A stretch of DNA of 43,455 nt from Vicinamibacteria bacterium (lineage in GTDB: Bacteria; Acidobacteriota; Vicinamibacteria; Vicinamibacterales; UBA8438), in the NCBI GenBank assembly GCA_022821235.1, contig JAJEEA010000526.1, forward strand, positions 1 to 43,455, given 5' to 3'. The notes beneath the pieces are model-generated. The model was not told the DNA's origin and did no database searches. It worked only from the letters and a program-made list of their open reading frames with translations. The position numbers and the translations under genes were made by a program. Within the stretch, counting starts at the first letter, position 1, and each line of letters begins with the position of its first letter. Positions 25,311 to 29,287 of this stretch are shown here, one piece after another.

Positions 25311-25401
25311 ATGAGTCGAACGGAAACGGACTTGCCACGATCTGATTGAGCCCGCCCTCCGCGCCACCGGATGGAGCTGGTACGCCGACGTCGAACTCTG
25401 A
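25311..25401 (+). pseudogene. N-terminal remnant of a restriction-helicase-like protein
   Basis: From ATG 25311 the frame reads MSRTETD and then breaks. A shifted frame continues TCHDLIEPALRATGWSWYADVEL and stops at 25399-25401. The combined pattern resembles the first 30 residues of HsdR-like restriction/helicase subunits (typically E.DTC...I.PAL.AAGW). The match is short, so the identification is tentative. It is the first gene after the sigma-54 promoter and appears to be a deletion remnant. Confidence 0.35.
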
Positions 25402-26181
25402 TGCCCGAAGGGACACCCGGGCGCTCAGAAACACCCAGCCGGCAGAGCATGGGCTCACACCGAACACTTATGGATCACGAGCCCTCAGGCTCCCGAGAAC
25501 ATCCGCCACCTGCTGCAGCACCAGGACGGTCTCTCCGCGATCATCACCGGCTCGCTTCGGCTGAAAAGGCTCCGCGAGGAGTACTGGTCGGCCCTCTTCG
25601 GTCTCGGCTGCCGGATCCCGATCAGTGCGCTGCCGGATCGCGACGCCAAACGACTGGTGACCGAACCGGTCGCCGACCGTCTGGATTACCTGCCGCAAGC
25701 ACGCGATCGGGTCGTGGAGTTGACGTCGCGCCATCCCTTTCTCATGCAGTCGCTCTGCAACCAAGTGTTCGAGCAGGCGGCGGAGACGAGCCGCAGGACG
25801 GTCACGCTCGAGCTGGTCGAGGAGGCGGCAACCGCGTTGGTCCGCGACAACGAACACTTCCGGACGCTCTGGGGCTATGCCGGAAACGAGCGCCGCAGGC
25901 TCCTTCTGGCCCTGTGCGACAAGCTCGCGAAGGGGTCCGACCCGGTCAACCTCGATCTTCTCGATCTGAAGCTGGACAAGCTCGGAGTGCCTGTTCACTC
26001 AGGCCGGGTGCTTTCCGACGATCTGGCGGCTCTTCGGGAGCTGGAGCTGGTCGAATACGCCGATTCGCCTCGCGGCGGCAACTACCGTCTGGCGGTGCCG
26101 CTGATGGCCAAGTGGTTGCAGCACAACGTCGATTTCGAGGACATCGTCAGGCGCGCGCGGCAGGAGGCGATGGAGTCGTGA
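25402..26181 (+). pseudogene. C-terminal part of a STAND/AAA-type ATPase, 5' end deleted
   Basis: An open frame without a convincing start runs to 26181. From about 25492 it is protein-like: ENIRHLLQHQDGLSAIITGSLRLKRLREEYWSALFGLG, then VTEPVADRLDYLPQARDRVVELTSRHPFLMQSLC and a winged-helix-like tail (LAALRELELVEYADSPRGGNYRLAVPLMAKWL). This is the sensor-1/lid and C-terminal portion typical of STAND-like ATPases; Walker A and B are absent. A GTG at 25657 could give a 174-aa product. The stop overlaps the next gene (GTGA), so it was the penultimate gene of the operon. Probably a deletion product; a short functional protein cannot be excluded. Confidence 0.6.
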
Positions 26182-27794
26182 CAACGAATCCCTATCAGGT
26201 TCTTGGTGACTCGGTTCCACGCATGCTCGGACGCGAGACGCTCCTCCGACGCATCGACCGGCATCTTTCGAAGGAGTCGCCCGACCACGTCTCGGTCGTA
26301 GGCCCGGCGCACTACGGGAAATCCGTCCTCCTTCGGCACATCGCGGACGCCTACGGAGAGGACTCGAAGCACTATCTGACGACCGTACACGTCGACCTTC
26401 GGCACGCCAGCATTACGTCCGACGGCGGCTTCAGGCGGTGTTTCGCGGACGACCTCAGAGCCGCGTTGCGACCGTATCGCCCCGGAGTGGCAGAGAACCT
26501 CGACCCCAAGGACGACAGTATCCATGAGCTGCTCGACCTCGTCTTCGACGAGCTCGCGGCTGAACCCGCGCGCGTGCTGGTCGTGTTCGACGGCTTCGAT
26601 CACGTCCTGGCCCGAGCCGACCTGACGAGAACGCTCTGGGACCAACTCCGCACCCTGGCGCAGAAGCCGAGCCTCCAGCTCGTCGCCGGCAGCCGGCTTC
26701 CGCTGCGCGAGGTCTGCCGAACGGAGGAGTCCAGAACGTCCGATTTCTGGGAGATCTTCAATTCGACGCCCGTTCGCGTAGGGGCGCTAGACGGCGACGA
26801 TCTGCGAGCCTTCATGCAGCCGCTCGTGGACGCGGGTTGCACTATCGATGAGTCCGCACGGAAGGAGGTGGAGGGCTCGACGGGCGGTGTGCCGCTCCTG
26901 GTTTGCGCCCTTCTGCGTAGACTGTGGGATTCCCCCGCCAAGACCTCCCGGCTCTCCAGGCAGGACGTCGATCAAGCCGCGGAGGCCGTGTTCCGTGAAG
27001 AACCCGACATCTTCGGAGCTCTGTGGGACGACTGCGACATGGAGTTGAGGGCCGACCTGGCGACCCTCGCCGATGCCGGCATGCCACGCGCCGACCTGTC
27101 CGAACGCCGACTTCGCCCCATCGAGGACCGCGGGTTCGGCAGCGTCACCGGAAAACGCGTGCACAGTGCCTGCCGGTTGATGCAACGGTACGCCAGCGCC
27201 CAGGCGCCCGCGATCGCCGACCTCAAGCGCCTCTTGGGTTCCCCGTCCGGTTTCGAGACTCACATCCGCTCCGCGCTGGAAATGCGTCTACAACAGGTTG
27301 CGACGCCCCGGACGGACAGCGAGCTTCGTGATTTCGTCAGCCGTGCGGTACGCGACCTCGACGACAACCCGGAACTGGCGGTCAACGGCGTCAGGGGCAT
27401 CGCGAACCGCGCGCTGACACTCATCTGGGAAGCAGAGCTCCCGCCCGACCGCACCCTGCCCTCCGACTGGATCGCCGAATGGAAGCACGCCGGCGTGAAC
27501 TTCCCCGACGACAGAGGCAAGCTGCCTCGCGGCTACGGCGCGCAGTGCAACATTCTGCGACTCGCGACGGGGACCCGCGTGCAACGCAAGAGCCGATACG
27601 TCACGAAGACGACCTGCCTGCTGATAGACCACCTGCAGTCCGTCGGCGACTTCGGCCAGCACCGCGGGGACTTTCCGGAGACCCACGTCACCCTCGGTTT
27701 CGCCGCGTCCATCGTCCTGGCGGCGATTGCGCTGGTGGAGAGTCTGACGGCGGACCTGCAACGAGAACAGGAGCCCGACCCCAAGGTGGTCTGA
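26178..27794 (+). CDS. ATPase of the CARF/sigma-54-linked operon (538 aa)
   Basis: The protein starts TTNPYQVLGDSVPRMLGRETLLRRI, a STAND/AAA lead-in, then Walker A VVGPAHYGKSVLLRHIA (about residues 40-56), Walker B RVLVVFDGFDHVL, sensor-1 LQLVAGSRLPL and a GGVPLLVCALL helix. The C-terminal 200 residues have no domain I recognise; a hydrophobic helix (LGFAASIVLAAIALVESL) lies near the end. Such ATPases act as signal-controlled switches in defence and stress systems. GTG 26178 overlaps the upstream remnant by 4 nt, so translation is coupled. As the only intact structural gene after the sigma-54 promoter at 25271, it is the likely target of the CARF regulator. Enzymatic output unknown. Confidence 0.65.
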   Translation: MTTNPYQVLGDSVPRMLGRETLLRRIDRHLSKESPDHVSVVGPAHYGKSVLLRHIADAYGEDSKHYLTTVHVDLRHASITSDGGFRRCFADDLRAALRPYRPGVAENLDPKDDSIHELLDLVFDELAAEPARVLVVFDGFDHVLARADLTRTLWDQLRTLAQKPSLQLVAGSRLPLREVCRTEESRTSDFWEIFNSTPVRVGALDGDDLRAFMQPLVDAGCTIDESARKEVEGSTGGVPLLVCALLRRLWDSPAKTSRLSRQDVDQAAEAVFREEPDIFGALWDDCDMELRADLATLADAGMPRADLSERRLRPIEDRGFGSVTGKRVHSACRLMQRYASAQAPAIADLKRLLGSPSGFETHIRSALEMRLQQVATPRTDSELRDFVSRAVRDLDDNPELAVNGVRGIANRALTLIWEAELPPDRTLPSDWIAEWKHAGVNFPDDRGKLPRGYGAQCNILRLATGTRVQRKSRYVTKTTCLLIDHLQSVGDFGQHRGDFPETHVTLGFAASIVLAAIALVESLTADLQREQEPDPKVV

Positions 27795-28077: not shown

Positions 28078-29250
28078 TCACGAGCGGCCGCGCAGCTCGC
28101 CGGCCATCTCGCGGACGCCGATGGCCTCCACGCTCTCCGACAGCGGGTAGTGGTCGTCTCCGGCGTGCACGACGAAGGCGCGCGCGGGCTCGAGGTCCTC
28201 GCACGAGAGGTGGAACCCGCGGCCGACCCGGGCCGACAGCGAGCGCTTGATCTCGACCGCCCAGCGCGCGCCGTCGGCGTGCTCGACGACGAGGTCGATC
28301 TCGGCGCCGGCGCTGGTCCGGTAGAAGTGGGGCCGCGCCCGCGGGGGCAGCACCGGGATCAGCGTCTCGACGACGTAGCCCTCCCAGCTCTCGCCGACCA
28401 CCGGATGCCCGGCGAGCTGCTCCAGCGACCCGATGCCGAGCAGGGCGTGCACGAGGCCGCTGTCGCGCACGTAGACCTTGGGCGCCTTCACGAGGCGCTT
28501 GCCGACGTTGGCGTGCAAGGGAGGCAGCCGGCGCACCAGCAGCAGGTCGACGAGGAGATCGACGTAACGGGTCACCGACTGCGCGCTCGCCTCCAGGGCC
28601 CGCGCCAGAACCGAGGCGTTCAGCGTGGTTCCCTGGCGGTGCGCGAGCATCGTCCACAGCCGGTCGAGGGTCGTGGCGGGCACGCGCGGCCCGAAGGCCG
28701 CGACGTCGCGCTCCAGATAGGTGCGGATGAAGTCGCGGCGCAGCGCCAGGCTGTCCTCGTCGCTCCCGGCCAGGAAGCTGTCGGGAAAGCCGCCCCGCAA
28801 CCAGAGCCTCTCGCGCGATGCCCGGGTGTCTTCCACTTCCAGCGGCGAGAGCGGCGCCAGGTCGATGTAGGCGATGCGCCCGGCCAGCGTCTCGCCCGAC
28901 TGGCGCAGCAGGTCGATCGACGCCGATCCCAGGATGAGGAACCGGCCCCGGCCCTTCCCCCGGCGCCGGCCCCGGTCGATGACGCCCCGCAGCGTCTGGA
29001 ACAGCTCGGGCATCCGGTGGATCTCGTCGAGGATGACGAGTCGGTCCTCCACGTTGTCGAGGAACAGCGCGGGCTCGGCGAGCCGGTTGCGGTCGTCGCG
29101 GTCCTCCAGGTCGAGGTAGAGCGCGTCGCGCGACCGCGCGATCTCGAGGGCGAGCGTCGTCTTGCCGACCTGCCGCGGTCCGATCAGCCCCACCGCGGCC
29201 TGACGCTCGAGGGCGTTCTCGACGTCGGACGTGACGATTCGGGAGATCAT
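28078..29250 (-). CDS. AAA_14/DUF4143 ATP-binding protein (390 aa)
   Basis: N-terminal AAA_14: AAVGLIGPRQVGKTTLALEIA (Walker A), DALYLDLED, DRLVILDEIHRMPELFQTLRGVID (Walker B), RFLILGSASIDLLRQSGETLAGRI. The C-terminal DUF4143 part includes YVRDSGLVHALLGI, HPVVGESWEGYVVE and the PD-(D/E)xK-like FYRTSAGAEIDLVVEH...WAVEIKRS. Proteins of this build are widespread, mobile and of unknown role; nuclease-like folds are predicted for the C-terminus. ATG 29250 sits directly beside a 37-bp palindrome with an embedded promoter, so the message may be leaderless and strongly repressed. A 66-codon frame follows 1 nt downstream but has no recognisable domain. Confidence 0.82.
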   Translation of the reverse strand: MISRIVTSDVENALERQAAVGLIGPRQVGKTTLALEIARSRDALYLDLEDRDDRNRLAEPALFLDNVEDRLVILDEIHRMPELFQTLRGVIDRGRRRGKGRGRFLILGSASIDLLRQSGETLAGRIAYIDLAPLSPLEVEDTRASRERLWLRGGFPDSFLAGSDEDSLALRRDFIRTYLERDVAAFGPRVPATTLDRLWTMLAHRQGTTLNASVLARALEASAQSVTRYVDLLVDLLLVRRLPPLHANVGKRLVKAPKVYVRDSGLVHALLGIGSLEQLAGHPVVGESWEGYVVETLIPVLPPRARPHFYRTSAGAEIDLVVEHADGARWAVEIKRSLSARVGRGFHLSCEDLEPARAFVVHAGDDHYPLSESVEAIGVREMAGELRGRS

Positions 29251-29287
29251 CCTTGAAATTTATCCACGTTGTGGACAATTTACAAGG
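29251..29287 (-). promoter_or_regulatory. 37-bp palindromic operator over a sigma-70-type promoter
   Basis: The two 17-bp arms, CCTTGAAATTTATCCAC and CCTTGTAAATTGTCCAC (read on opposite strands), match at 14 of 17 positions around a GTT centre. On the minus strand TTGTAA (29280-29285) and TAAATT (29257-29262) are spaced 17 bp like -35 and -10 boxes. The palindrome ends at the ATG of the DUF4143 ATPase gene, so a bound protein would block transcription. Confidence 0.65.

Follow-up and report, generated by a model that had tools for sequence, protein, structure and literature searches.

A palindrome ending at the start codon of a mobile AAA_14/DUF4143 ATPase gene: a probable private operator and promoter whose inner bases covary with the predicted recognition helix

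What is the role of a 37-bp palindrome that ends exactly where an ATPase gene begins? The window, by which we mean the whole stretch of 43,455 nucleotides analysed here, carries such a palindrome on the minus strand, where its last base adjoins the ATG (29250–29248) of a 390-aa AAA_14/DUF4143 gene. Of its 17 arm pairs, 14 are complementary, and the arms are separated by a 3-nt centre. The palindrome encloses the promoter-like pair TTGTAA-N17-TAAATT, with TAAATT lying 6 nt from the ATG; both boxes are thus inside the site, as a preliminary description of this DNA had claimed (Table 1). A repeat finder working from a 9-nt seed gave no match for the palindrome because none of its exact runs is as long as that seed. 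When the sequence upstream of the gene was dinucleotide-shuffled 200 times, the dyad score had p 0.025, which makes the palindrome, taken singly, modest evidence that is suggestive rather than decisive. It becomes convincing because relatives conserve a site of the same plan. The palindrome itself is kept in the two relatives L057 and L058, at 92% and 90% identity.

Table 1. Positions of the putative operator and of the gene, domains and residues proposed to read it (coordinates of the window).
Feature	Position	Strand	Remarks
Putative operator/promoter palindrome, 37 bp	29251..29287	-	17-nt inner part flanked by two 10-nt outer arms; family-wide plan
Left outer half-site CCTTGTAAAT	29278..29287	-	holds the -35-like TTGTAA (29280-29285); family consensus CC[T/A]TG[C/A/T]A[A/T][A/T]T
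Left inner half-site TGTCC	29273..29277	-	gene-specific; covaries with residues 222-224
Right inner half-site, mirroring the left one	29261..29265	-	TATCC on the opposite strand
Right outer half-site AATTTCAAGG	29251..29260	-	abuts the start codon; -10-like TAAATT at 29257-29262
AAA_14-winged helix-DUF4143 protein, 390 aa	28078..29250	-	Pfam; PADLOC PDC-S01 candidate; AlphaFold model; proposed operator reader
AAA_14 ATPase domain, residues 18-138	28837..29199	-	Pfam
Winged helix-turn-helix, residues 191-243	28522..28680	-	AlphaFold model; predicted recognition helix, residues 223-235
Residues S222-A223-Q224	28579..28587	-	covary with inner operator bases 11-14
Residues S313-A314, turn before D319	28309..28314	-	residue 314 and outer operator base 3 covary
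C-terminal PD-(D/E)XK-like domain	28081..28398	-	E290, D319, E333-x-K335 conserved (alignments); weak nuclease fold matches

The protein matches the Pfam families DUF4143 at 151.9 bits (cut-off 28.1) and AAA_14 at 89.8 bits (cut-off 27), and it fits the PADLOC profile PDC-S01 with an E-value of 2.4e-88. Its AlphaFold model has a pLDDT of 92.4, with block means of 90–96 over residues 191–250. The helices and strands of this model, together with a match of profile positions 195–249 to 2fbh (E 7e-4), which we take to be a MarR-type regulator, identify a winged helix-turn-helix fold with a recognition helix. Residue 223 opens that helix in the model, and residues 313–314 form the turn before the strand of D319. 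In the C-terminal domain, E290, D319 and K335 are invariant and E333 is nearly so in alignments of 18 and of 39 sequences, while all four are invariant in an alignment of 21 sequences. The fold matches of this domain are weak: ACE1, McrBC, AgeI and VRR_NUC are matched by the C-terminal model at E 0.0025–0.035, none at or below 0.001, and the Cas4 profile 4r5q is matched at E 0.0088.

PDC-S01 is a very common candidate for phage defence. In the available text of PMC12988326, it is an ATPase fused to a PD-(D/E)XK domain and the fourth most common defence across prokaryotes, counted 29,494 times in bacteria and 9,986 times in archaea, and validation is still pending for most such defence candidates. 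A hint about expression in the family comes from Thermus, where TT_P0211 (AAA_14, DUF4143) was up 6.6-fold with a plasmid in an Argonaute-positive strain, according to the accessible Table 1 of PMC4406477. As for the gene's surroundings in the window, an 807-aa protein is encoded convergently on the plus strand (25371–27794), with an AAA_16 stretch at residues 286–432 (Pfam) and a NACHT match just below the cut-off.

The preliminary description had staked its case on finding a similar dyad upstream of homologous genes. We examined 166 genes, comprising 87 from related genomes (the window's included) and 79 from records whose titles point to about 16 phyla, mostly metagenome-assembled. The search of 149 genomes gave 90 matches, from which three partial or contig-edge rows were dropped to leave 87 upstream regions, four of them from the window's own genome. 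Of 80 named loci that were added, 79 were usable after L183, whose match begins at residue 71, was dropped; L006 (a duplicate of L056) and the fragments L247 and L249 were also excluded. The dyad score was at least 9 in 56 of the 87 upstream regions, compared with 1.3 expected from shuffles and with 3.8% in 863 control windows. A half-site model of the form 10+N14–21+10, fitted on the same 166 sequences that it scores, found the similar dyad in 161 of them at a score of at least 6 (8 of 166 in the reversed-sequence control) and in 150 at a score of at least 12 (none in the control). The spacing was exactly 17 nt in 144 of the 161 two-armed sites.

Furthermore, among new genes outside the fit, 61 of 67 scored at least 8, and 56 of these had the spacing of 17. 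When the spacing was fixed and the symmetry bonus removed, 156 of 228 genes, distant paralogues included, still passed compared with no controls. The outer arms of the sites are fairly constant (consensus in Table 1); the inner arms differ from gene to gene yet remain complementary. Annotated starts on plasmids also fit a dyad that abuts the start codon, for example in L374, L375 and L393. Of 11 plasmid genes inspected singly, seven (L372, L374, L375, L380, L391, L392 and L393) have their best dyad overlapping or ending at the start region, one (L373) has visible half-sites that another dyad outscores, and in three (L388, L389 and L390) the start region lacks a clear dyad. From IMG/VR came 28 loci, 26 of which entered the fit. 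The half-site model fits eight of nine at 41–61% identity and 3 of 17 at 34% identity or less, two of these three, which are identical matches, lying inside the reading frame.

More distant subfamilies lie outside the window's half-site model. One consensus for all the DUF4143 genes of the window's own genome was tried and fails, as only 7 of 38 other paralogues fit the model. Of 37 genes of that genome, 22, counting that of the window, have a dyad at p≤0.05; the sequences of these dyads mostly differ. Upstream of the distant paralogues L008, L049, L002 and L390 we observed direct repeats (e.g., copies of ATTGGACG) instead of a dyad; these genes may belong to a subfamily whose proteins bind DNA in another way. 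In another pair of genes, L010 (G000:C411) and L087 (G001:C200) from two genomes of one genus, the operators are near-identical, and the 17-nt inner part of L010 is the exact reverse complement of that of L087 (centre GTAAG vs. CTTAC), as would be expected of a palindrome-mediated inversion.

Could the variable inner arms be read by the very protein that the gene encodes? We searched for covariation in 154 of the 228 genes, with a spacing of 17 and a score of at least 8 required; three of these training genes are more than 98% identical to another. Across 365 residue columns and 18 bases, the APC-corrected mutual information ranked the residue–base pairs 224-13 and 223-12 at the top, followed in order by 313-6, 224-14, 314-3 and 222-14. 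Base 6 ranks many other residues high too, as a subfamily marker would. Counting both half-sites in the 154 genes, K224 goes with G13 in 63 of 64 cases, P224 with A13 in 60 of 66, D223 with C12 in 50 of 52, H223 with G12 in 46 of 48, Q314 with A3 in 26 of 26 and N314 with A3 in 22 of 22. T224, G223, E223 and A223 go with mixed bases and specify nothing clear. Lysine or histidine with G, glutamine or asparagine with A, and aspartate with C are rules of DNA recognition; several of the covarying pairs obey such known rules, and P224-A, Q224-T and H313-A do not obviously do so.

The rules were written down before the test and were then applied to the 56 fitted genes among the 67 new ones; eight of these 56 are more than 80% and three more than 90% identical to a training gene. 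The results show that 222 of 254 half-site predictions held, with little change in the 48 test genes less than 80% identical to the training genes. K224-G13 was found in 35 of 36 half-sites (19 of 76 with other residues), P224-A13 in 19 of 22 (15 of 90), D223-C12 in 16 of 16 (13 of 96) and Q224-T13 in 9 of 10 (9 of 102). For the weak rule A314-T3, the count was 33 of 38 compared with 44 of 74 with other residues, and the rules S313-C6 (11 of 24), M224-A13 (0 of 2) and R314-G2 (0 of 2) failed on the new genes.

Similarly, in 103 disjoint sister pairs, 223-12, 224-13, 224-14 and 314-3 beat the best of all residues in 2000 of 2000 permutations, and 222-14 did so in 1994 of 2000. The pair 313-6, though strong across subfamilies, gained no support within the sister pairs, where 1856 of 2000 permutations attained its level, and for base 2 the wing residue 239, not 314, came first in a sister-pair ranking made without permutation. 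Because of these two results, the reading of the outer site by the protein appears less settled. For the inner site, proteins only 20–42% identical have an inner-site identity of 0.62 if residues 223–224 are common to both (29 pairs) compared with 0.31 (3202 pairs), and when these residues differ the value stays at 0.31 even at 55–90% protein identity; the protein pairs in this comparison are not independent of each other. The residue pair HH at 223–224, however, was found in three separate protein clusters, and the one operator listed for each cluster has TGGA in both halves. Shared history explains the agreement between residues 223–224 and the inner site poorly. The site sequence follows the protein's own predicted DNA-binding residues: residues 222–224 appear to read the inner bases 12–14, and residue 314 appears to read the outer base 3. 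This covariation between recognition helix and operator supports the earlier suggestion that the ATPase itself could be the repressor, repression as such being a further step that we infer.

We propose that, very probably, the mobile gene regulates itself, the palindrome being its private operator and promoter, which the ATPase binds and represses. The physical binding, the oligomeric state, the repression and any ATP dependence are part of this proposal as we infer it from the sequences. The protein would bind the palindrome as a symmetric dimer or a higher oligomer. The first residues of the recognition helix would contact the inner half-sites, which vary, and the outer ones would be contacted by the turn that adjoins the C-terminal active-site strand. 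The bound protein would exclude RNA polymerase, since the −35 box, the −10 box and the leaderless start codon are all inside or beside the site, and the gene would thereby hold itself at a set level. Derepression would occur when the protein changes state, through its ATP cycle or some trigger, or when it is titrated. Consensus-like boxes and a leaderless start could make the cassette able to work in distant hosts, and the differing inner sites would prevent cross-regulation among the many copies in one genome.

A bolder idea, which we hold as doubtful, comes from the conserved nuclease-like domain helping to read the site. Beyond its role as a switch, the operator may be a DNA leash that keeps the protein in reserve on its gene, in the role of a silent nuclease or an ATPase sensor. 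If the gene or the host DNA were lost, degraded or copied by an invader, the protein would be released or overproduced and would act. PDC-S01 would then be a self-tethered module of addiction or defence in which a private DNA site replaces the antitoxin.

If the gene is mobile, does its operator move with it? The gene or a relative, in some cases a distant one, is present on 356 of 72,556 plasmid records. In the Sphingobium plasmids L373 and L375, the gene lies inside a transfer operon, and the same place lacks it in L376, L377 and L378. In a local alignment of the two inserted blocks, the homology starts 6 bp before the palindrome, which indicates that operator and gene move as a unit; the inserted unit in this comparison is the operator and the gene only. 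On Rhodobacterales plasmids, the gap between DUF2493 and DUF736 holds the ATPase gene, an HTH-RelE pair or a hypothetical gene. A single plasmid site seen in L372, L380, L381, L379 and L382 carries the ATPase gene, an HTH-RelE/ParE toxin-antitoxin pair or a hypothetical gene, and in L380 the HTH gene remains while the toxin's place is taken.

An alternative that is compatible with self-regulation is that the operator is a working site for cutting or recombination, which the PD-(D/E)XK-like domain cleaves or nicks as in a homing or transposition module, and that the overlap with the promoter is secondary. The conserved E290, D319 and E333-x-K335, the covariation of residue 314, beside the active-site strand, with the outer site, and the presence of the gene or distant relatives on plasmids but not at the same place in related plasmids are all consistent with it. 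So is the excess of weak matches to the half-site model within 400 nt past the 3′ end (11 vs. 2 of 112 reversed controls at score 6, and 3 vs. 0 at score 12). However, no general second dyad is found on the 3′ side (4 of 112 vs. 2 of 112 controls at score 8), the result on which a transposon with terminal inverted repeats was rejected; the gene's own half-site recurs downstream in three genes compared with three controls, and the fitted operators are intact beside open reading frames. We consider this alternative unlikely.

The promoter layout was scored in 218 genes, in each of which we assigned the start to the first in-frame start codon where the dyad ends. Among the 122 genes whose dyad abuts the start, 67 have a best −10-like hexamer whose end is 6 or 7 nt away from the start codon; in this class, the hexamer belongs to the conserved dyad and its position is tied to the dyad sequence. 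The same spacing was observed in 32 of 69 genes whose start is at least 9 nt downstream of the dyad, and no such peak was seen in the 27 remaining genes with other spacing. Strong Shine-Dalgarno sequences occur in 0 of 122, 2 of 69 and 0 of 27 genes, the corresponding counts in shuffled neighbours being 7, 3 and 4. A TGG at the end of the right arm, with TAnnnT after it, is frequent in the second group and matches the consensus of an extended −10. Leaderless transcripts have this arrangement, with a −10-like box 6–7 nt upstream of the start codon. The transcripts of the family are probably leaderless, and the same start proposed earlier for the window's gene agrees with this spacing, in which the box mostly precedes the start codon by 6–7 nt across the family.

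Repression rather than activation is proposed because the dyad overlaps the promoter, which is the sole basis for this choice. That the protein activates its own promoter would suit the second subfamily, in which the dyad is mainly upstream of the −10 box; in the window's subfamily, however, both boxes are covered by the dyad, which extends as far as the start codon, so that a bound protein would block the polymerase, and we see activation as quite improbable.

Could the dyad act as RNA instead, as a hairpin in the 5′ leader that masks the start codon? A hairpin would be possible if transcription began upstream of the dyad, and the covariation of the left and right arms, taken alone, would suit RNA. 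At the inner positions 11–15, the two arms agree at 0.70–0.82 within a gene but at 0.25–0.44 between genes, and this coupling is nearly unchanged without the symmetry bonus; the agreement of the left half with the right half of the nearest relative is 0.53–0.65. Where the left base differs from that of the nearest relative, the right base matches its own left base in 56–71% of cases and the relative's in 19–26%. Among the arm mispairs, G-T (147) is somewhat commoner than A-C (110), but A-A (149) and T-T (136), whose bases do not pair with each other in RNA, match G-T in frequency, and there is no marked G-U preference. Furthermore, about half of the genes have a −10-like box 6–7 nt ahead of the start codon, which places the dyad upstream of the predicted transcript, and an RNA stem offers no account of why the helix residues predict the operator bases. 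These observations argue for a DNA site and make the hairpin very improbable.

How private, then, is the operator within its genome? The 6.6-Mb draft genome (92% complete) contains 42 DUF4143 matches, two of them being pieces of one gene, which amounts to a large expansion. A search of this genome with the window's 16-nt half-site, allowing up to two mismatches, returned only the two arms of the palindrome; for the half-site of L010, the genome search gave one further match with two mismatches. Among 59 named genes, operator similarity tracks protein similarity (r 0.23, 0 of 2000 permutations), and its correlation with host group is r 0.09 (13 of 2000 permutations).

There is next to no chance that a host factor such as DnaA reads the palindrome: that host-group link is weak and stands at 0.07 allowing for protein identity, across phyla the inner bases track residues of the protein that the gene itself encodes, and the DnaA-like boxes TTGTCCAC and TTATCCAC of the preliminary description, which we judged against what we take to be the DnaA-box consensus, sit in the fast-changing inner half-sites, where TTATCCAC is kept at 92% and 90% identity but TTGTCCAC has become TTTCCAG and TAACCAC, and both are gone in L059, L142, L143 and L150 at 62–66% identity.

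The best fold matches of the window protein are the archaeal AAA+ ATPases SSO1545 (2fna) and PABY2304 (2qen), with Z-scores of 16.2 and 17.5 over 247 and 248 residues, and they span only its residues 1–272. We know of no operator for either of them and, to our knowledge, the AAA_14/DUF4143 ATPase family has no prior description as a regulator. Familiar parallels are the self-regulating controller (C) proteins of restriction-modification systems and the toxin-antitoxin autorepressors, products of small mobile genes that bind a dyad overlying their own promoters. Unlike in these systems, the proposed reader here forms a single protein with an AAA+ ATPase and a nuclease-like domain, and the inserted unit in the Sphingobium comparison holds nothing besides the operator and the gene. 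A correlation code between protein residues and site bases, like the one described here, is given for the MerR family in the available part of PMC5045206, but MerR is a classical regulator family, whereas here the readers would belong to an ATPase family. Mycobacterial IniR, as far as the accessible text of PMC5760070 goes, is a promoter-binding ATPase that contains an SSO1545-like domain; unlike the window protein, it has a different DNA-binding domain, and it induces the iniBAC operon. Within the portions of the open-licence PMC literature available, we found no earlier description of an AAA_14/DUF4143 operator, though one may exist elsewhere, and no operator, leaderless start, DNA-reading residues or mechanism described for PDC-S01.

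With the palindrome, PDC-S01 gains a candidate DNA ligand, which is partly predictable by a residue-to-base code in one large subfamily. A private operator and promoter of this kind would suggest how one gene might be expressed in many phyla and how one genome might accommodate about 40 related genes. With it, the PDC-S01 family becomes open to experimental test.
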